From: Halocatena salina
GTDB taxonomy: Archaea > Halobacteriota > Halobacteria > Halobacteriales > Haloarculaceae
Direction of reading: 5' to 3'
Assembly (NCBI RefSeq): GCF_023115355.1
Contig: NZ_CP096019.1
Location: forward strand, 1,922,001 to 1,986,000
DNA length: 64,000 nt
The notes under the pieces are model-generated. The model saw only the letters and a program-made list of their open reading frames with translations, ran no database searches and was not told the DNA's origin. Positions 9,381 to 60,314 of the stretch are shown one piece after another. A program made the translations under genes and the position numbers. Within the stretch, counting starts at the first letter, position 1, and every line of letters starts with the position of its first letter.

Positions 9381-11213
9381 TCACTCGACAGTGACGCTTT
9401 TGGCGAGGTTCCGGGGTTTGTCGATGGGTCGGTCGAGCAACGCGGCGGCGTGGTAGGAGACGAGTTGGAGCTGGACGTTCGCTAGCAACGCGGCGGTCCG
9501 CGGTGTGCTCTCGGGGATTTCGAGGACGTGATCGGCGTAGCGTTCGACATCGGATGCGCCGTCGGTGACAGCGATCACCGGTGCGTCGCGGGCTTCGACT
9601 TCCTTGACGTTGCCGATCGTTTTCCGGGCTTGCTCACCGTCGCCGGTGACCACGGCGAACACGGGCGTGTTTTCAGTGACGAGCGCGAGCGGTCCGTGTT
9701 TGAGTTCTCCGGCGGGGAACCCTTCGGCGTGTTCGTAGCTGATCTCCTTGAACTTCAATGCGCCTTCGAGCGCGACCGGATGATGCAGCCCACGGCCGAT
9801 GAAGAAGTAGGCGTCCGAATCGTGGTATTCCTCTGCGATCTCTCGGGCGTTCGTGTCGTCGAGAATGGCCTGAACGTTGCTCGGGAGATCACGCAGGCCA
9901 GCGATGACGTCGCGGTCGTCCTCCGATCCGTTCAGATGGAGCGTTAGCAACGAGAGCGTGATCAGCTGTGAGGCGAACGTTTTGGTCGCTGCGACACCGA
10001 TTTCCGGTCCGGCACGGATGTACAGCGCCTCGTCACACTCACGTGCCGCCGTCGATCCGACGACGTTCGTGACCGCGAGGGTTTTCGCACCGCGATGGCG
10101 GGCTTCCCGAAGCGCGCTCAGTGTGTCAGCGGTTTCACCGCTCTGGGTGACGCCGATGACCAGATCGTTCTCGATGGGTGGAACGCTGGTGGCGTACTCG
10201 CTCGCGATGAACGCTTGGGCAGGGATTCCGATCGACCGGAACAGCTGTGCGCCGTACAACGCGGCGTGATAGGACGTTCCACACGCGACGAACTGGACGG
10301 TGTCCGGATCGAGCGCACCGAGTTCGTCGAGAAGCACTTCTCCACCGAGTTCATCGACTCGTCCCTGAAGACACTGGCGCAGTGCGCGCGGCTGTTCGTG
10401 GATCTCTTTCAGCATGTAATGGTCGTAGCCGCTTTTGCCCGTCTCCTCGGGATCCCACTCGATCGTGTTGATCGATTTTTCGACCACAGTGCCGTCGACG
10501 TCGGTCACCCGCCAGCCGTTTTTATTGATCACGGCGAACTCGCCATCATCGAGGTAGACGACCTGATCGGTGAACTCCCGGAACGCCGGAACGTCGCTTG
10601 CGAGGAAATACGCCTCCTCGCTGATCCCGAGCACGAGCGGCGAGTCGTTACGTGCGGCAAAGACCCGGTCGACGCCAGCGATAACGGCGCAGATCGCGTA
10701 CGCCCCCTCCAGTCTCGAAACCGCGGAGCGGACGGCTTCCTCGGGGGCCATTCCGGTGTCGAGCGCGGTTTCGATCAGGTGAGGGACAACCTCCGTGTCC
10801 GTGTCGCTGTGGAACTCGTGGCCCTCGGCCGCCAACTCGTCTCTGAGTTCCTGGTAGTTTTCGATGATCCCGTTGTGGATGACTGCAACGCGACCCGTAC
10901 AGTCCCGGTGGGGGTGAGCGTTGTCGTCCGTCGGTGGGCCGTGGGTGCTCCATCGCGTGTGCCCGATCCCGACCGGGTTATCGTGTAGCCCGTCGCCTTC
11001 GACCGTGCTGTCGTCGCCATCCAACAACGTCTGAGACGAAAGCGAAGAGCGCAGCGCATCGAGCGTTCCTGCCTTTCGGCGAACGCTGAGTTCCTCGTTC
11101 GAGAGTGCGACGCCAGCCGAATCGTACCCCCGGTATTCGAGCTTCGAAAGCCCATGCATCAGTGTGTCGAGCGTTTCACCGCCCCGGCCAGCACAGCCGA
11201 TGATCCCACACAT
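9381..11213 (-). CDS. glmS: Glutamine--fructose-6-phosphate aminotransferase (isomerizing)
   Basis: 610 residues. It makes glucosamine-6-phosphate from fructose-6-phosphate and glutamine, the entry step to UDP-GlcNAc. The start MCGIIGC places the catalytic Cys at position 2 of the Ntn glutaminase domain. Two SIS sugar-isomerase domains follow (CGTSYHAALYG near 300; the second from about 460) and the C-terminus ends with the conserved KPRNLAKSVTVE. The start codon shares one base with the stop of the upstream glmU, so the two are translationally coupled. Confidence 0.96.
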   Translation of the reverse strand: MCGIIGCAGRGGETLDTLMHGLSKLEYRGYDSAGVALSNEELSVRRKAGTLDALRSSLSSQTLLDGDDSTVEGDGLHDNPVGIGHTRWSTHGPPTDDNAHPHRDCTGRVAVIHNGIIENYQELRDELAAEGHEFHSDTDTEVVPHLIETALDTGMAPEEAVRSAVSRLEGAYAICAVIAGVDRVFAARNDSPLVLGISEEAYFLASDVPAFREFTDQVVYLDDGEFAVINKNGWRVTDVDGTVVEKSINTIEWDPEETGKSGYDHYMLKEIHEQPRALRQCLQGRVDELGGEVLLDELGALDPDTVQFVACGTSYHAALYGAQLFRSIGIPAQAFIASEYATSVPPIENDLVIGVTQSGETADTLSALREARHRGAKTLAVTNVVGSTAARECDEALYIRAGPEIGVAATKTFASQLITLSLLTLHLNGSEDDRDVIAGLRDLPSNVQAILDDTNAREIAEEYHDSDAYFFIGRGLHHPVALEGALKFKEISYEHAEGFPAGELKHGPLALVTENTPVFAVVTGDGEQARKTIGNVKEVEARDAPVIAVTDGASDVERYADHVLEIPESTPRTAALLANVQLQLVSYHAAALLDRPIDKPRNLAKSVTVE

Positions 11214-46888: not shown

Positions 46889-47359
46889 ATTTAGATGCCT
46901 TGGTGGGTGGCGCAGCTGAACAGTCGGTATACTAGCAGTAGACGGTGACAGTGATCCGCTTCAATGCCTTGGTGGCTGCTGGCACAGTTGAAAGAAACGT
47001 ATCCAATGCGCCGAGGAACAACTATCCATGAGTTGCAATGCCTTCGTCGCCGCTGGCACAGTTGAAAGTCATGGGCGAGATTCGGAGCTGATCGAGCAAG
47101 TCGTTGCAATGCCTTCGTCGCCGCTAGCACAGTTGAAAGACGACAACAATATTGACAATATCGCAACCCTCCATGCGTTGCAATGCCTTCGTCGCCGCTG
47201 GCACAGTTGAAAGAGGACAATGTCTCGATCTACCTCGAGGACGATATCGTTGCAATGCCTTCGTCGCTGCTGGCACAGTTGAAAGGAACGATATCGTGGC
47301 TGTCGCGGAGATCCTGGCCCAAGTTGCAATGCCTTCGTCGCCGCTGGCACAGTTGAAAG
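46889..47359 (-). CRISPR. CRISPR array 1: six repeats plus a decayed terminal repeat
   Basis: 37-base repeats start at 46958, 47032, 47103, 47177, 47249 and 47323, with spacers of 37, 34, 37, 35 and 37 bases. A decayed repeat (about 46889-46923) lies 34 bases before the first. The plus-strand form starts GTTGCAATGCCTTCGTCGCC and ends GGCACAGTTGAAAG. On the minus strand it starts CTTTCAACTGTGCC and ends ATTGCAAC. The decayed end at left means the leader end is at right. The first repeat (46958) has CTTCAATG and GGTGGCTG, closer to array 3. No leader like that of array 3 is seen at 47360-47427. Confidence 0.93.
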
Positions 47360-47427
47360 GAATTCCCACGACCCTGTCGGGGTTAGGTACCCATCGAATT
47401 ATTTGTGTGGAGAAAAATATAGCTCCC

Positions 47428-50376: not shown

Positions 50377-50475
50377 CGCTATCGAGTAGGTGATCAAATC
50401 AGTAAAACGTTCCCTGAAACAATATTTTGGAAGGGAGGTTACAGGACCGTTGGCGGCCGCCCGTGGGGAGCCGGG

Positions 50476-50760
50476 TCAGGTGAGGTCGAAGTCGACGCCG
50501 TCGGCGATCGTCCGGACTACAGCATCACACAACTGGCAGTCCGGGGCTGCCACGGTCTCCTCGTTCTCAGTTTCGACACCGATGCGGAGCGCCGAGTCAC
50601 AGCCACACGCCGGGCACTCGTCGGTCTTGGCCCAGCAGTAGCGCAGGATCGTCTCTTCGATATCGTCGACGGTCTGCGACCGTCTGCTTGCGGAACTTCG
50701 TTCCTCTCTGCTCGTGAGCGCGTCGGTACCTTCAAGGTCGTTTGGGTTAGAATCGTACAT
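50476..50760 (-). CDS. Small CxxC/CxxC protein, copy B
   Basis: 94 residues from ATG 50760 (MYDSNPNDLEGTDALTSREE). A polar insert SREERSSASRRSQT precedes VDDIEETILRYCWAKTD, then CPACGCDS and CQLCDAVV. Four or five cysteines suggest a zinc-binding fold. It is almost identical to copy C; differences are a handful of residues such as SQT for SAT and ETVAA for EAVSA. Part of the segmental duplication; next to it lie a decayed CRISPR repeat and a toxin-antitoxin pair. Confidence 0.72.
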   Translation of the reverse strand: MYDSNPNDLEGTDALTSREERSSASRRSQTVDDIEETILRYCWAKTDECPACGCDSALRIGVETENEETVAAPDCQLCDAVVRTIADGVDFDLT

Positions 50761-50885
50761 GGTCTTCAGCCTGCGATTGGAGACCTTTACCGGGTGTTCC
50801 TGCACCCGGGTCCCACACGGTGACCCGTGTGGAACTTACTCGTGTTCAGCCTCCGATCTCATCGTTGTCCCGTCATATTATAAAA
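50761..50885 (-). promoter_or_regulatory. Promoter and three-hairpin 5' leader of copy B
   Basis: The TATA box TTTTATAATAT lies at 50875-50885, so transcription should start near 50850, leaving an untranslated leader of about 90 bases. Stem 1: CCACACGG (50813-50820) with CCGTGTGG (50825-50832). Stem 2: CCGGGTG (50790-50796) with CACCCGG (50803-50809). Stem 3: GGTCT (50761-50765) with AGACC (50781-50785), abutting the ATG. Confidence 0.68.
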
Positions 50886-51145
50886 CACTAGGTATCGCGT
50901 TCGTACTGTCGTCGTAGTGATCTTCATCGTGAGCGTCGTTACTCTGGGATCGTATCGATGTCGATCGGGTTCTCCGGTTCACGCCGCCTCGTGATCGTAC
51001 GTCGATCGTATCGGATAGCTATTTGTCATATTCGTCATGCTGTCGAGGTAAGTTCATGCTCGTCTGGACGGTGGTCGGCTTTGGTGTGGCCACGAGCGCG
51101 ACAACTTCGAGAGCAACAGCTTCGAGAGCAAATCCGGAGCGGTCA

Positions 51146-51182
51146 GTCTGGGTGTTTCGGTGGGTGTTGATACAGTTGAGAG
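51146..51182 (-). repeat. Decayed solo CRISPR repeat
   Basis: 24 of 37 positions agree with the array-3 repeat, with the end ACAGTTGAGAG almost intact. It closes the duplicated segment after the copy-B gene; the paralogous site is at 58087. No spacer or second repeat is recognisable. Confidence 0.5.
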
Positions 51183-51218
51183 ATAACGGTGGCGGACTCG
51201 ATGGCGAAAAAAGACAGT

Positions 51219-51620
51219 TCACGCAACCGCGTGGTTGCGATTGTTTTCATGATCTCCGGAGAGATCGATGTCAAGCCGGATGTCGTCGTACGGGACGACC
51301 GGCCGTTTGGAGCGCCCATCTTGCTCGAACTGGATAAGCCCGAGCGTTTCCAACTCGTTCGTATTCCGATGGACTTCTTTAACATCCCGTTCGACGAGTT
51401 CAGCCGTCTCACGGATGCTTGATGGTTCTTCCTCCGAGATAGTCCGGAGAAGTTCGAGATTCACCGCGCTCAGGATGCGTGCAACATCCTCTTCACGTTC
51501 GATATTGAGGACTCGGTGAGGTTCGACATCCTCCCCTCGTTCAACTGCTGCAATCCATTCACGGGTCTCTTGTCGTGTTCGGTCGTCTTCCCCGACCCGA
51601 ACGATCAGTGTGTCTGTCAT
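51219..51620 (-). CDS. HVO_A0114-type HTH protein, probable antitoxin
   Basis: 133 residues. The N-terminal 45 residues (MTDTLIVRVGEDDRTRQETR, then REEDVARILS) lead to a winged-helix core ELLRTISEEEPSSIRETAELVERDVKEVHRNT, quoted in part as SSIRETAELVERDVKEVHR. A wing FEQDGRSKRPVVPYDDI follows. This family, named from a Haloferax gene, typically follows a DUF6516 gene and is proposed to be its antitoxin and repressor. It lies 76 bases downstream of the DUF6516 gene on the same strand. Confidence 0.78.
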   Translation of the reverse strand: MTDTLIVRVGEDDRTRQETREWIAAVERGEDVEPHRVLNIEREEDVARILSAVNLELLRTISEEEPSSIRETAELVERDVKEVHRNTNELETLGLIQFEQDGRSKRPVVPYDDIRLDIDLSGDHENNRNHAVA

Positions 51621-51696
51621 TGCCGGTTTCTTTTACTTCATCACGCTGTTTCATTGTTCTGTGCGCGTGCAGATGGCCAACTGACTTAGTGGGTCA

Positions 51697-51993
51697 TTAT
51701 TCGTTTTGTTCCCACCATTCATCAACTTCCCGGAGGAATCGGTCGTGGAGGACCATCATCCCTGGAAAGTCAATGATTTCGACACCGTCTGTAGTGTGAC
51801 GTTCATGGCCTTTTTCGAGTTCGTGTGAGTTATCGTACCGCAGAATCGTGTTGCCATTAGTATCGCCAAAGTGCAGGCGGTATTTCCACCCACAGGGATA
51901 GGTATCGGACTCGGTCGGTCGCATGGTAATCGACCGAACCATCCCGTCCTTGTAGGTCGTTTGTTCTTTGACTACATCACTCTCATCTGCCAT
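51697..51993 (-). CDS. DUF6516-like probable toxin
   Basis: 98 residues from ATG 51993 (MADESDVVKEQTTYKDGMV); another Met two codons upstream (51999) is possible and lies at the edge of the operator. A beta-rich body (GWKYRLHFGDTNGNTILRYD) and a helical end (MMVLHDRFLREVDEWWEQNE) fit DUF6516, which is linked to toxin-antitoxin pairs in archaea and bacteria. Its activity is not established. It is the first gene of the pair. Confidence 0.72.
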   Translation of the reverse strand: MADESDVVKEQTTYKDGMVRSITMRPTESDTYPCGWKYRLHFGDTNGNTILRYDNSHELEKGHERHTTDGVEIIDFPGMMVLHDRFLREVDEWWEQNE

Positions 51994-51999
51994 CTGCAT

Positions 52000-52047
52000 A
52001 TGTTGGTAATAGGCCCAACATCTATAGTGTTGGGGTAAGGCCCAACA
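52000..52047 (-). promoter_or_regulatory. Tandem operator palindromes of the toxin-antitoxin operon
   Basis: Two inverted repeats with ATGTTGG/CCAACAT-type arms: 52000-52021 (ATGTTGG and CCAACAT, 8-base centre) and 52028-52047 (TGTTGGG, six bases, CCCAACA). They are about 27 bases apart centre to centre, on one helix face within error, between the start codon and a TTATATG TATA-like box at 52046-52052. Cooperative autorepression by the HTH protein is likely. Confidence 0.72.
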
Positions 52048-52096
52048 TATAACGGTGCACCATCTCGGAAGCAACGTTCCCTACAAGGTCTATCGC

Positions 52097-52133
52097 GTTT
52101 CAATGCCTTCGTCGGTGCTGGCACAGTTGAAAG
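52097..52133 (-). CRISPR. Solo CRISPR repeat with both trailer and leader flanks
   Basis: One intact 37-base repeat (GTTTCAATGCCTTCGTCGG...CACAGTTGAAAG on the plus strand). Left of it, 52063-52096 matches the 34 bases left of array 3 (GGAAGCA...CTACAAGGTCTATCG). Right of it, 52134-52265 matches the array 3 leader. Thus it has the whole outer frame of an array but no spacer. Confidence 0.85.
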
Positions 52134-52265
52134 AGGGGGTGGAAATCTGTCCAGAGGTCCAATAAAGCTTTCTCCATCGGTCTCATCGCCCACCGTCTTC
52201 GTGGACCCCCCCTGTACACGAACTTTATAAAGGTCCACGAAGGATAACGGCAACACGTTCCGCAA
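52134..52265 (-). promoter_or_regulatory. CRISPR leader with promoter (at the solo repeat)
   Basis: Nearly identical to 60045-60175. TATA box TTTATAAA at 52224-52231, flanked by the inverted repeat CTTCGTGGAC (52197-52206) and GTCCACGAAG (52233-52242). Transcription on the minus strand would start near 52200 and run into the repeat after about 65 bases. Confidence 0.75.
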
Positions 52266-52503
52266 CAGGTGACCTCCCACCGAGTCCCACACCCAGATGA
52301 TGCACGTGGTCCGATACAGTATTTTCGTCTGTGGATGGTACTCCGACCCTAAATCACCGCCGGACTAGCCGACCGGAGTACGACGGCAATCACCCGCTGG
52401 CAGGCGGAGAACGCCCGCCCACTGCGTTCGTATCGACTACAGCGACCCATCCACCACTTTAATTTCCTCAGACTTTTATTTTATTCTAAAACTATATGCA
52501 TAT
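52266..52503. other. Gene-free stretch right of the solo-repeat leader
   Basis: 238 bases with no supported gene. The middle is GC-rich with no recognisable repeat. The last 35 bases turn strongly AT-rich and hold the promoter of the small zinc protein at 52504 (CTTTTATTTTA at 52473-52483). Confidence 0.4.
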
Positions 52504-52611
52504 ATGGGGAAGGAAGTGCAATGTCACAACTGTGGTTTTTGGACGGAGATCGAGCCACACAGGAACGGCGAAAACATTTGCAAGCGGTGTGAAGAGAAGT
52601 TACGATACTGA
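52504..52611 (+). CDS. Zinc-ribbon microprotein (35 residues)
   Basis: ATG 52504 to TGA 52611. The sequence starts MGKEVQCHNCGFWTEIEP and contains a second pair ICKRCEEK, a complete CxxC...CxxC ribbon spaced by 16 residues. An AT-rich promoter is placed about 25 bases upstream, so a leaderless mRNA is likely. Convergent with the gene at 52613, with one base between stops. It is of the type of the haloarchaeal zinc-finger microproteins. Confidence 0.68.
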   Translation: MGKEVQCHNCGFWTEIEPHRNGENICKRCEEKLRY

Positions 52612-52612
52612 C

Positions 52613-53287
52613 TTACTGAGATGACGTGACGGTGTGTTTCGCTTCCTCGAAGACATCGTCTGCGATGGCCGCGAGCGCGGGGAGATGCCACATCTCAGCC
52701 AGTTCCGTGAATCGCGCCCGAACGGCTCGGCCTGTCTCGATGGCGCGCTCGTAGCCGTTGATCGAATCGTCGTGGATGTAGAAGACGAACCGCGTGTACG
52801 CCAGTTCCTCCGGACTGAACACGCCACGTTTGAGGAGATCACGCGGTCGCGTTCGCTCCGTTCCATCGGTGTCAATGAAAAAGTCGATCGCTTCGGGAGG
52901 GTAGCCGAGAACGACGCCTAAGCGGCGGTGCCACGCCCGATTACGGTCGGCTTTCTCGCTCGATGGCAGCAGATCTAAACGACCGTCCGTCGGGGCGATG
53001 AACCAGTCGTTTCCGGTTCCCTGTCCGATCCGCCGATACGATAGCTCGAACAGCTCGCACAGCGCTATCAGTCCTCGATGAGGTGTCCAAGGATGCTCCG
53101 GAAAGGCGAACTCTGTGGCAGAGATCTCCGCCGCTGGCTTGTCGCCAGCCACCACGAGCGCAAGCAACAATGGATCACGGTAACACGCGTCGTTTTCGGC
53201 GTGTCGCTCGAAATACCGACCCAACTCGCATCGCTGTCTCTCCGTCAGGGTTTCCGCGCATGGCGGGACTGGTGACGGAACGAGCAT
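52613..53287 (-). CDS. Unknown protein, paralogue pair member 1
   Basis: 224 residues. No family recognised. It shares with the 53549 gene the ordered motifs LALVVAGDKP, HRRLGVVLGYPPEAIDFFI, RTRP, GVFSPEELAYTRFVF, GYERAIETGR and LAEMWHLPAL. A cytoplasmic mixed alpha/beta protein is expected; no signal peptide or membrane segment. Base composition is as in neighbours. A long AT-rich upstream gap contains a decayed CRISPR repeat (53468). Confidence 0.6.
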   Translation of the reverse strand: MLVPSPVPPCAETLTERQRCELGRYFERHAENDACYRDPLLLALVVAGDKPAAEISATEFAFPEHPWTPHRGLIALCELFELSYRRIGQGTGNDWFIAPTDGRLDLLPSSEKADRNRAWHRRLGVVLGYPPEAIDFFIDTDGTERTRPRDLLKRGVFSPEELAYTRFVFYIHDDSINGYERAIETGRAVRARFTELAEMWHLPALAAIADDVFEEAKHTVTSSQ

Positions 53288-53467
53288 ATATTTTCTATAA
53301 TGTCTCTTGGTGAATATAGATGGTGGTTAGGTCCTTTCGACTCGCGTGGACTGCTCACGGGGTCATGGAAGTGGTGAGATGACACTCGACGATGCTCGGT
53401 GCTCGTGTTCGGCAAATCGATCACCGTCCCTCCTGCCAGCGGACATCGTTGTCGATTTCGTCGGTGT

Positions 53468-53504
53468 GTCTCAGGTCCTTAGTCGATACTGGTACAGTCG
53501 AAAG
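53468..53504 (-). repeat. Decayed solo CRISPR repeat
   Basis: 28 of 37 positions agree with the array-3 repeat, including the end ACAGTCGAAAG and the inner CCTTAGTCGATACTGG. It lies in the gap between the two paralogous unknown genes, 44 bases from the stop of the second. Confidence 0.6.
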
Positions 53505-53548: not shown

Positions 53549-54187
53549 TCAGCGAGTCGCGCGGTGCAGTTGATCGACGAGAAAGCGATAGACGATCTCG
53601 GTTTGGTGTTCGAGCGCCGGTAGCTCCCATCGGTCGGCGAGTTCGAGCAACAGATCACGGTTGGCCTTCCCCTGTTCGATGGCCCGCTCGTAGCCGTGGA
53701 CGGAATCGACCGGGACGTGGAAGACGAACTGGGAAAACGCCAGTTCGTACGCGGAAAATTGTCCACTCGCGATGAACTCTGCTGGCCGCGTTCGGTCGGA
53801 GAGTTCCTGTTCGATAAAATGGTCGATCGCCGCCCGTGGATAGCCAAAAAACCACCCCAACCGACGATGATACTCCGGGCGATCGTGCACTTTTTCGGGC
53901 AGATAGCTGATTCGCAAGGGGTCCCGCGCCACATACCACGACGACGATGGCGCAACGCGCCCGTATGCAAGACCTAACCGGTCAAAAAAATCGATCGGGG
54001 AGCGAGCCAGACACCTCCACGGCTCCGTCGAAACGATCGTCCCCGGCTTCTCACCAGCCAGAACCAACGCCAACCGAAGCGGCTCCCTGTCGTCTTCGAT
54101 CCCCTCGAAATAGCTGAGAAAGTCCGCGACTGCCACCCGCTGGGTGGACGTGAGATCGATCTGTCCGATCGCCTGATTGGTCGCCAT
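53549..54187 (-). CDS. Unknown protein, paralogue pair member 2
   Basis: 212 residues. It matches member 1 in LALVLAGEKP, HRRLGWFFGYPRAAIDHFI, RTRP, GQFSAYELAFSQFVF, GYERAIEQGK and LADRWELPAL; the N-terminal third is less similar (IDLTSTQRVAVADFLSYFEG). Same strand and order, so a tandem duplication followed by divergence. No function known; presence amid CRISPR remnants and a toxin-antitoxin pair suggests an accessory, perhaps defence-linked, role, which is only inference. Confidence 0.6.
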   Translation of the reverse strand: MATNQAIGQIDLTSTQRVAVADFLSYFEGIEDDREPLRLALVLAGEKPGTIVSTEPWRCLARSPIDFFDRLGLAYGRVAPSSSWYVARDPLRISYLPEKVHDRPEYHRRLGWFFGYPRAAIDHFIEQELSDRTRPAEFIASGQFSAYELAFSQFVFHVPVDSVHGYERAIEQGKANRDLLLELADRWELPALEHQTEIVYRFLVDQLHRATR

Positions 54188-54509: not shown

Positions 54510-54546
54510 CCACCATGGCCGTGCTAGTTGCTGGCACAGTTGAAAA
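54510..54546 (-). repeat. Decayed solo CRISPR repeat
   Basis: The last 18 bases (TTGCTGGCACAGTTGAAA) differ from the array-3 repeat by one base; the first half is eroded apart from ATGGCC. Situated between the zinc microprotein and the CPBP protease gene. Confidence 0.6.
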
Positions 54547-57299: not shown

Positions 57300-57431
57300 A
57301 TGGTCTGTACCTGTCCCTTTGACATCTGATACATAAATTACGTACTGTGTGTCTACTGCCGTAATCCTCCGGCCCACAGATGGGATGAAAATTCGTGGAG
57401 GGAACCACTCCTGTCCGTCTTCGGGATCGGC

Positions 57432-57716
57432 TCAGGTGAGGTCGAAGTCGACGCCGTCGGCGATCGTCCGGACTACAGCATCACACAGCTGGCAGTCCGG
57501 AGCACTCACGGCTTCCTCGTTCTCAGTTTCGACACCGATGCGGAGCGCCGAGTCACAGCCACACGCCGGGCATTCGTCGGTCTTCGCCCAGCAGTAACGC
57601 AGGATCGTCTCTTCGATATCATCGACGGTCGCAGACCGTCTGCTTGCGGAACTTCGTTCCTCTCTGCTCGTGAGCGCGTCGGTACCTTCAAGGTCGTTTG
57701 GGTTAGAATCGTACAT
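57432..57716 (-). CDS. Small CxxC/CxxC protein, copy C
   Basis: 94 residues from ATG 57716, almost identical to copy B (MYDSNPNDLEGTDALTSREE, CPACGCDS, CQLCDAVV). DNA differences are mostly at third positions, so the coding sequence appears under selection since the duplication. Likely zinc-binding; function unknown. Confidence 0.72.
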   Translation of the reverse strand: MYDSNPNDLEGTDALTSREERSSASRRSATVDDIEETILRYCWAKTDECPACGCDSALRIGVETENEEAVSAPDCQLCDAVVRTIADGVDFDLT

Positions 57717-57838
57717 GGTCTTTGCCTCTATGTGGAGACCATCTCCGGGTGTCCTGAGCACCCGGCCCCACACGATCCGTGTGGGTACTGTAACGCGTGC
57801 AGCCTCCGATCTCATCGTTGTCCTGTCATATTATAAAA
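57717..57838 (-). promoter_or_regulatory. Promoter and three-hairpin 5' leader of copy C
   Basis: TATA box TTTTATAATAT at 57828-57838. Stem 1: CCCACACG (57767-57774) with CGTGTGGG (57778-57785). Stem 2: CCGGGTG (57745-57751) with CACCCGG (57759-57765). Stem 3: GGTCT (57717-57721) with AGACC (57736-57740), abutting the ATG. Loops differ from copy B while the arms are kept. Confidence 0.68.
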
Positions 57839-58086
57839 CACTAGGTATCGCGTTCGTACTGTCGTCGTAGTGATCTTCATCGGGCGTGTCGTTACTCTGG
57901 AATCGGGTCGCTGTCGATCGGATCCTCCGGTTCACGCCGCCTCGTGGTCGTGCGTCGATCGTATCGGATAGCTATTTGTCATATTCGTCGTGCTATCGGA
58001 GCAGATTAATACTCGTCGCCGGGTGATAGTCGGATCTGGGATGGTTACGAGCGTGTCTAGCTTCGAGAGCGGAGACGGAGCGGTCA

Positions 58087-58123
58087 GTCTGGACGTTTCG
58101 GTGGGTGTGGATACAGTTGAAAG
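58087..58123 (-). repeat. Decayed solo CRISPR repeat
   Basis: About 24 of 37 positions agree with the array-3 repeat, and the end ATACAGTTGAAAG is well kept. Paralogous to 51146-51182 at the end of the duplicated unit. Confidence 0.5.
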
Positions 58124-58203
58124 ATAACAGCAGCGGACTCAACAGAACAAACTTCTGCACGACGAACGTAGAATAAGGTGGCCGGGGGCACCTTGGCTCT
58201 ATC

Positions 58204-58767
58204 TTAGAGCCACCACAGGTCCCGGCCACGGTCCTTCAACCACTCTTTCGCGTCCGGGATGCTCGTCAACTTCACGGTGTCTCGTGCGCCGCCACCAACC
58301 GCGATGACTGGCGCGTCTGTGTCGCGGCCTAACTCGCGGATTAAGTCCTCGAAGCGGTCTTGGTCCGACGATTTGAACCAGTTTTTCACGGTGGCCACTT
58401 GCTTCGAGTGGCTTCCCGTGACCTTTTCTCGTGCGAGCTTTTCCACGATGTCCAGCTTGAGTTCGTCGTTTGCTTTCAGTGAAAGGAGTTCAGATGCACT
58501 CAGACCGAATTCAAGAGGATTATTTTCCGGCTCTGCTTGATTCAACAGGCGATGTTGCTTCTTCTCATCTTTTCGTTCCATCTTTCGGTGGCAGCCAACG
58601 CATAACGTGACCAAATTCTCCGGTTCGTGAGAGCCACCTTCCACACGAGGGATAATATGGTGAACATCCAGTTTCACACCATCTTCGAAACATATCCGGC
58701 ATTTATACCCACCCCGTTCAACAATCTGATTTCGGATCTTTCGCCCCTCCTTACTTCGGAATCTCAT
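58204..58767 (-). CDS. HNH endonuclease
   Basis: 187 residues. The HNH domain is N-terminal: CRICFEDGVKLDVHHIIPR, then NLVTLCVGCHRKME, giving two zinc CxxC pairs and the catalytic HH. The remaining 110 residues (PLEFGLSASELLSLKANDEL and on) contain a helical segment and a GGGARDTVKLTSIPDA patch of unknown role. Could be a free-standing homing, defence or restriction nuclease. Just right of the duplicated unit. Confidence 0.82.
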   Translation of the reverse strand: MRFRSKEGRKIRNQIVERGGYKCRICFEDGVKLDVHHIIPRVEGGSHEPENLVTLCVGCHRKMERKDEKKQHRLLNQAEPENNPLEFGLSASELLSLKANDELKLDIVEKLAREKVTGSHSKQVATVKNWFKSSDQDRFEDLIRELGRDTDAPVIAVGGGARDTVKLTSIPDAKEWLKDRGRDLWWL

Positions 58768-59226: not shown

Positions 59227-59280
59227 AAGACTATTTTCATATTTTCATCTCGGAAGCACGTTCTCTACAAGGTCTATCGA

Positions 59281-60044
59281 GTTTCAGTGCCTTCATGGCT
59301 GCTGGCACAGTTGAAAGCCAGCCAAGTGGACCTCAGAGAAGCCCGAATGCTCCGTTTCAATGCCTTGGTCGCCGCTGGCACAGTTGAAAGGATGACCAAT
59401 TCCTCGCTCAGTAGTTATCTGAGTCGTTTCAATGCCTTGGTCGCCGCTGGCACAGTTGAAAGATCTCTATCCTCTGGATAAATCATAGATTCACAGGCGT
59501 TTCAATGCCTTGGTCGCCGCTGGCACAGTTGAAAGGGTCGTCGAGATCATGGTCGAAGGTGGAGATGGGCGGTTTCAATGCCTTGGTCGCTGCTGGCACA
59601 GTTGAAAGCTGTTCCTGTTGACTGGTAGTAGTTGCCTGAAATTTCGTTTCAATGCCTTGGTCGCTGCTGGCACAGTTGAAAGACACGAGGTTTTCTTCAG
59701 CGATCTCCCAGAGTCGATGTTTCAATGCCTTGGTCGCTGCTGGCACAGTTGAAAGCGTTGATACGGATACGGCAGCGCGGACGATTGCAGTTTCAATGCC
59801 TTGGTCGCTGCTGGCACAGTTGAAAGCACAAATCCATCGATCCGCGACAGCAACGTGGAGGTGTTTCAATGCCTTGGTCGCTGCTGGCACAGTTGAAAGC
59901 GACGGAGTTCAGAGAGCGCAGAGCCGTCATAACTGTTTCAATGCCTTGGTCGCTGCTGGCACAGTTGAAAGTGACGGCCATTAGCGGTTCGGGCGATCCG
60001 AAGATCCGTTTCAATGCCTTGGTCGCTGCTGGCACAGTTGAAAG
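59281..60044 (-). CRISPR. CRISPR array 3: eleven repeats, ten spacers
   Basis: 37-base repeats start at 59281, 59354, 59426, 59499, 59572, 59646, 59719, 59790, 59863, 59935 and 60008, with spacers of 34-37 bases, all different. The plus-strand form begins GTTTCAATGCCTTGGTCGC and ends CTGGCACAGTTGAAAG; read on the minus strand it ends with ATTGAAAC, the classical repeat end and crRNA handle of type I systems in archaea. The repeat at 59281 is decayed (GTTTCAGTGCCTTCATGGC), marking the old end. Repeats 2-4 have GCCGCTGG and 5-11 GCTGCTGG. The leader is at right. Confidence 0.97.
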
Positions 60045-60175
60045 AGGGGGTAAAAATCCGTGGAGCGATCCAATAAAGCTTTCTCCATCGGTCTCATCGC
60101 CCACCGTCTTCGTGGACTCCCCCTGTACACGGATCTTATAAAGGTCCACGAAGGATAACGGCAACACGTTCCGCA
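60045..60175 (-). promoter_or_regulatory. CRISPR leader with promoter of array 3
   Basis: Contains TATA box CTTTATAAG (60135-60143, minus strand) enclosed by the inverted repeat CTTCGTGGAC (60108-60117) and GTCCACGAAG (60144-60153). An AATAAAGCTTTCTCC tract lies about 30 bases from the first repeat. Start of the pre-crRNA is expected near 60110. The same sequence adjoins the solo repeat at 52134-52265. Confidence 0.8.
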
Positions 60176-60314
60176 TCCGGATTCAGTCCCGCCGGGAGCA
60201 GCGCGCCTCTACCCACAGCATCGCTGCCCATCGGGGTATAGCCACCGATCGCCTACCGCCGAGAACACAACCGGACAGCGAAACCGCCTAACCCGTCCCG
60301 GCGTTAGGCGCGGT

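Follow-up and report, generated by a model that had tools for sequence, protein, structure and literature searches.

As cas genes decay, CRISPR arrays dwindle to a handful of repeats while keeping their leader (PMC2886076); recombination between repeats, or their misalignment, removes repeat-spacer units, and terminal spacers are the most stable (PMC8047081). The degraded or orphan arrays of Escherichia and Salmonella are of this kind, with few repeats and a persisting leader, and operate in trans with distant cas genes (PMC2886076). In CreTA, a minimal CRISPR, creA, adjoins a toxin gene (PMC8501985, PMC9458426); ten guide seed nucleotides (nt 1–5 and 7–11) pair with the toxin promoter beside a PAM (PMC8501985), and the mini-CRISPR guide has degenerate repeats (PMC9458426). 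Also comparable are the type III-A (Csm) satellite arrays A3, B1, B2, C1 and C2 of Halocatena, which share their leader type with type I-D arrays.

Here we describe a solo-repeat locus within a 64,000-nt stretch of the Halocatena salina chromosome (NZ_CP096019.1, positions 1,922,001–1,986,000; hereafter the window, to which coordinates refer unless stated). The locus has the same leader, repeat stem and 5' handle as the Halocatena satellite arrays, but a single repeat where the others carry 2–11. In contrast to the Escherichia–Salmonella orphan arrays, it retains exactly one intact repeat, lies in a genome where type I-D adaptation genes and a type III-A effector are still encoded, and has a toxin-antitoxin cassette inside the former array. 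It differs from creA in its non-degenerate repeat, its full leader, its lack of promoter seed complementarity, and a protein toxin with its own antitoxin gene. We assign a probability of roughly 0.78 to the reading that the solo locus is a minimal satellite CRISPR array of the type III-A-linked family, produced by contraction or non-expansion; it is a tidy case of known CRISPR decay and not a new system.

A single intact repeat behind a full leader

A complete 37-nt CRISPR repeat is located at 52097–52133 on the minus strand (plus strand, GTTTCAATGCCTTCGTCGGTGCTGGCACAGTTGAAAG). Read on the minus strand, a leader of ~136 nt (52269–52134) is followed by the repeat CTTTCAACTGTGCCAGCACCGACGAAGGCATTGAAAC (52133–52097) and a 36-nt segment (52096–52061), after which come at once the promoter region of a TumE gene, then TumE, an HVO_A0114-type partner, a degenerate repeat and a small gene that we term gene X. 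The paralogous unit used for comparison is array 3 (11 repeats, 59281–60044), which together with its leader and a shared 35-nt terminal segment spans 59246–60180 on the minus strand; seven of its repeats are identical and three have one base different. The solo repeat differs from the commonest array 3 repeat at 2 of 37 positions, and its hairpin arms are identical to those of the array repeats. Against a profile built without it, the solo repeat scores 64.5 bits, compared with a maximum of −2.3 over 254,110 positions of the same genome, and is therefore not a chance occurrence. The right flank (52096–52264) matches the leader side of array 3 (60007–60175) with 92% identity, and the left flank (52061–52133) matches 59246–59317 with 90% identity, the likeness breaking off abruptly 36 nt from the repeat. 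The original prediction placed a single repeat at 52097 between array 3-like flanks, with an array 3-like leader to its right, and both the profile score and the flanks bear this out. Its anatomy of leader, one repeat and old array end also stands, but the ~34 bases on the left, which it took for an intact trailer, are spacer-long.

With conserved stem arms, an intact ATTGAAAC 5' handle, a family leader directly abutting the repeat, and effector and adaptation genes in the genome, the locus resembles a member of the local III-A-linked family. Such members have at least two repeats with spacers between them; here only one good repeat is present, so that we class the locus as a minimal or contracted array, not as a regular one. 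Towards the trailer, repeat-like sequence reappears only ~900 nt on, at 51146, in degenerate form. Terminal repeats are degenerate in most other arrays of the family, whereas the solo repeat is intact.

The segment that follows the repeat measures 36 nt at the solo locus (52061–52096) and 35 nt at array 3 (59246–59280), and the likeness then stops; spacers of the family are 33–37 nt long. Between this genome (G000) and a relative, G004, the orthologous arrays A1, B1 and C1 have only the old-end segment in common, and the other spacers all differ. In array A1, the equivalent 36 nt are succeeded by a decayed repeat that can still be recognised. Because the shared 36 nt are spacer-long, because old-end segments are common to the two species in orthologous arrays and because a decayed repeat follows at array A1, we read them as the oldest spacer of the array rather than as trailer. 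The true old end of the solo array probably lies beyond the toxin-antitoxin genes, at the degenerate repeat 51146–51182 (minus strand), which scores 2.4 against the null maximum of −2.3; the array 3 unit has a homologue of it at 58087. Both scores barely exceed the null sample, and we therefore hold this placement to be likely, not certain.

Searches with the 36-nt segment against viral contigs, and with the window array spacers against phage records, returned no targets. Within its own genome, the 20-nt core of the segment occurs exactly only at itself and at the array 3 copy, and allowing 3 mismatches yielded three sites, the level of a reversed-pattern control. Among known RNA families, a single sub-threshold match was found in 50400–53400.

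Leader and promoter elements

The leader (52134–52269, minus strand), 92% identical to that of array 3, is predicted to be transcribed towards the repeat. It contains an inverted repeat, CTTCGTGGACC ... GGTCCACGAAG (52197–52242), that encloses a TATA-like CTTTATAAAG (52223–52232) and recurs in most leaders of the genus; this conserved leader core is perhaps a site for a regulator or for adaptation. A second TATA-like box, GCTTTATTGG (52159–52168), lies 26–35 nt before the repeat, is conserved in nearly all aligned leaders and is the likely core promoter of the array. Within the window, the leader core is found at the solo locus and array 3 and nowhere else. The repeat-proximal part of the solo leader carries five unusual bases that are otherwise present only in the array A1 leader of G004, which we take as a trace of exchange between arrays.

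The array family and its cas genes

The solo locus belongs to a family of small type III-A-linked arrays, with three in the window and four elsewhere on the chromosome. Six loci in the genome combine leader and repeat, carrying 1–11 repeats; the four chromosomal arrays outside the window, with a leader and repeat of the solo type, have 3, 5, 6 and 2. Array A1 (46958–47388; repeats 46958–47359) shows the opposite condition to the solo locus: it has six repeats and has lost its leader, which G004 still keeps there. Upstream of the solo leader, two more degenerate family repeats (53468–53504 and 54510–54546) may be relics of other array pieces. Two proteins are also encoded just upstream of the leader (52613–53287 and 53549–54187, minus strand), which share a paralogous stretch of 80% DNA identity over 77 nt and have no Pfam, PADLOC or NCBIfam match.

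The type III-A operon, on contig C1, directly adjoins array B2 and comprises csm5, csm4 and csm3 (PADLOC models) as well as csm2 and Cas10 (Pfam). GGDD is present as a motif in the Cas10, and the operon also gave a weak CARF match of Csx1 type. No cas1 match was obtained on this contig; intact full-length cas1 genes are present on contig C5, one of them within a complete type I-D operon (cas1/2/3/4/6/7/10). The type I-D arrays, those of this operon included, lie on contigs other than that of the solo locus; their leaders are 77–78% identical to the solo leader, and their repeats share its ATTGAAAC at the 3' end. It is therefore plausible that adaptation functions are supplied in trans from the type I-D genes. 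Separately, L013 (~10761–10900; G000:C1 near 1196761) holds a type I-D-style leader with one degenerate I-D-type repeat that has lost the ATTGAAAC end.

A duplicated unit with differing cargo

The original prediction would have been undermined by flanks belonging to a wider duplication unrelated to arrays. A wider duplication is present, pairing 50472–51199 with 57428–58140, and what it duplicates is the array unit itself. The solo and array 3 units share one layout, in which a cassette is followed by a homologous block that begins with the degenerate repeat and includes gene X; the leaders of the two units have diverged by 8% and the gene X blocks by 14%. The cassette is TumE-TumA in the solo unit and an HNH gene in the array 3 unit. 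The TumE-family toxin gene (51697–51999, minus strand; Pfam PF20126, E=1.5e-11), the only copy found in the genome, is the gene nearest the repeat on its downstream side and runs in the same direction as the leader, with its ATG at 51999, ~97 nt from the repeat end. It is followed by an HVO_A0114-family winged-helix protein (51219–51620, minus strand; Pfam PF25212, E=3.5e-31), the presumed antitoxin TumA.

Gene X (50476–50760, minus strand) encodes a small zinc-ribbon protein of ~90 aa and recurs beside family arrays and leaders, with further copies at 57432–57716, L009:10068–10331, L010:10831–11112 and L103:6001–6237. Across Halocatena it is found repeatedly between arrays and leaders, in G005 next to a solo repeat, and it is possibly CRISPR-associated. 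The HNH protein adjoining array 3 (58204–58767, minus strand; 187 aa) matches the HNH part of the NCBIfam IscB model (E=2e-17), below the curated cut-off and with no RuvC-sized remainder, and is possibly an IshB-like protein inside a CRISPR unit.

Decay in relatives

Relatives were compared with one genome per species. G004 is ~87% identical in DNA over the window region, and in its ortholog of the solo locus only the final 12 nt of the repeat survive between the leader and gene X, which were joined by a deletion at a CACA microhomology. A longer orthologous array was sought among the relatives, and this repeat-deleted locus of G004 was the only match. Elsewhere, G004 has csm3, arrays of 3–7 repeats and two single repeats with shortened leaders. 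These single repeats (L048:10319–10375; L053, reverse strand, 1504–1560) lie directly behind the leader TATA box, so that a transcript could start near the crRNA 5' handle without Cas6 cutting. All three leader-repeat loci of G005 have a single repeat, and this genome gave no csm3 match; G006 has csm3 and arrays of 2, 9 and 6 repeats. We considered whether csm3 of the relatives might be a pseudogene and rejected this, as the apparent stop codons arose from a query frame that extended too far at its N terminus. A close type I-D Cas1 is found only in this genome and in G003. The single-repeat leader loci of the genus agree with the observations on shrinking arrays and on unit loss cited above (PMC2886076, PMC8047081).

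Probable contraction or non-expansion of a minimal array

Anatomy, kinship and decay elsewhere in the genus are observed; transcription, processing and the ability to acquire spacers are what we infer. The solo locus would have originated as one half of a duplicated gene X–array unit. Array 3 now has ten further spacers; in the solo copy, younger repeat-spacer units were either never gained or all lost again when repeats recombined or slipped. The minus strand would be transcribed from the leader through the repeat, and Cas6 could cut the solo repeat to give one crRNA with the old spacer, beginning ATTGAAAC-GCGATAGACC. New spacers could be integrated by Cas1–Cas2 where leader and repeat meet, since the leader served by the type I-D adaptation genes is similar and the repeat 3' end is the same. 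The solo locus is thus probably an array that lies dormant and could still be renewed, not a dedicated device, and most likely has no role beyond that, save perhaps yielding one crRNA and taking up spacers. Several points weigh against this reading: csm and type I-D adaptation genes are still encoded, so that decay through the absence of cas genes is not forced; an intact repeat in a terminal position could reflect selection for function; and none of the spacers searched matched a known virus. Loss at the solo locus is itself something we infer, from a comparison that covers one genome per species.

The original prediction of a collapsed array or a spacer-free seed fits a minimal array, but the recombination between terminal repeats that it proposed is not demonstrated, because the near-identical repeats of array 3 look younger than leaders that have diverged by 8%. 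A true collapse, in which homologous recombination joined the leader-proximal repeat to the oldest one and removed the rest of a multi-spacer array, is a sub-case of the minimal-array reading to which we give even odds. It would account for an intact solo repeat where terminal repeats are otherwise mostly degenerate, since fusion with a leader-proximal repeat should give an intact chimera, and accords with the retention of old-end spacers between sister species while others turn over. Moreover, the solo repeat is identical in its left half to the leader-proximal repeats of arrays B2, C1 and C2 and in its right half to the terminal C1 repeat, and the A1-type bases in the repeat-adjacent leader tract are a sign of recombination. 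The variable positions are few, however, which leaves the chimera unproven, and the apparent youth of the array 3 repeats relative to the duplication means that the ancestor may have been short.

That same apparent youth favours a seed that never expanded, duplicated at one repeat, with array 3 then taking ten spacers and the solo copy none. Seven identical and three one-base-different repeats in array 3, set against leaders and gene X blocks that are 8% and 14% apart, suggest that the array 3 spacers probably post-date the duplication. Yet copying during acquisition and recombination both homogenise repeats within an array, making identity a weak clock, and the degenerate repeat past the cassette implies an earlier state with at least two repeats. 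We therefore regard an unexpanded seed as possible but the less probable course.

Regulatory readings and assembly

The neighbourhood invites a CreTA-like reading, in which the repeat and 36-nt segment would form a guide that represses TumE, or the leader and repeat would serve as a Cas6-processed 5' UTR of TumE-TumA. Both genes lie directly downstream and co-directional, at the ~97-nt distance given above, and haloarchaeal creA genes descend from minimal CRISPRs (PMC8501985, PMC9458426). However, within the TumE-TumA region the longest seed match to the segment measures 6 nt and the highest total match 19/36, neither exceeding what shuffled sequences give (95th percentiles, 7 and 20), so that the guide pairing with the toxin promoter that characterises CreTA is missing. 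The degenerate repeats of creA are not seen here either, the stem arms being identical to those of array repeats. TumE has a candidate protein antitoxin, G003 has a TumE-TumA pair without such a repeat nearby, and G004 lacks the pair at its solo-locus leader. We accordingly consider a CreTA-like regulator very improbable. A simple effect of the repeat as part of the 5' UTR of the operon is conceivable. The further proposal that the TumE-TumA operon has recruited the leader and single repeat as its Cas6-dependent promoter and 5' UTR is as improbable as the CreTA-like regulator; if true, a protein toxin-antitoxin pair would be coupled to whether the CRISPR processing machinery is present.

Least credible of all is an assembly artefact that reduced a longer array to one repeat: such collapse is a known assembly error in general, but no tool result indicates it here, the same assembly resolves 3–11 copies of the 37-nt repeat with unique spacers, and one-repeat loci recur in independent genomes.

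Implications

As a minimal satellite array, the solo locus captures a CRISPR array that has only the minimum needed for renewal. One-repeat loci recur in this genus, and orthologous arrays have only their oldest spacer in common, which makes array contraction and regrowth directly testable. It also illustrates how cargo, here a toxin-antitoxin pair and in the paralogous unit an HNH nuclease, comes to sit inside decaying arrays.
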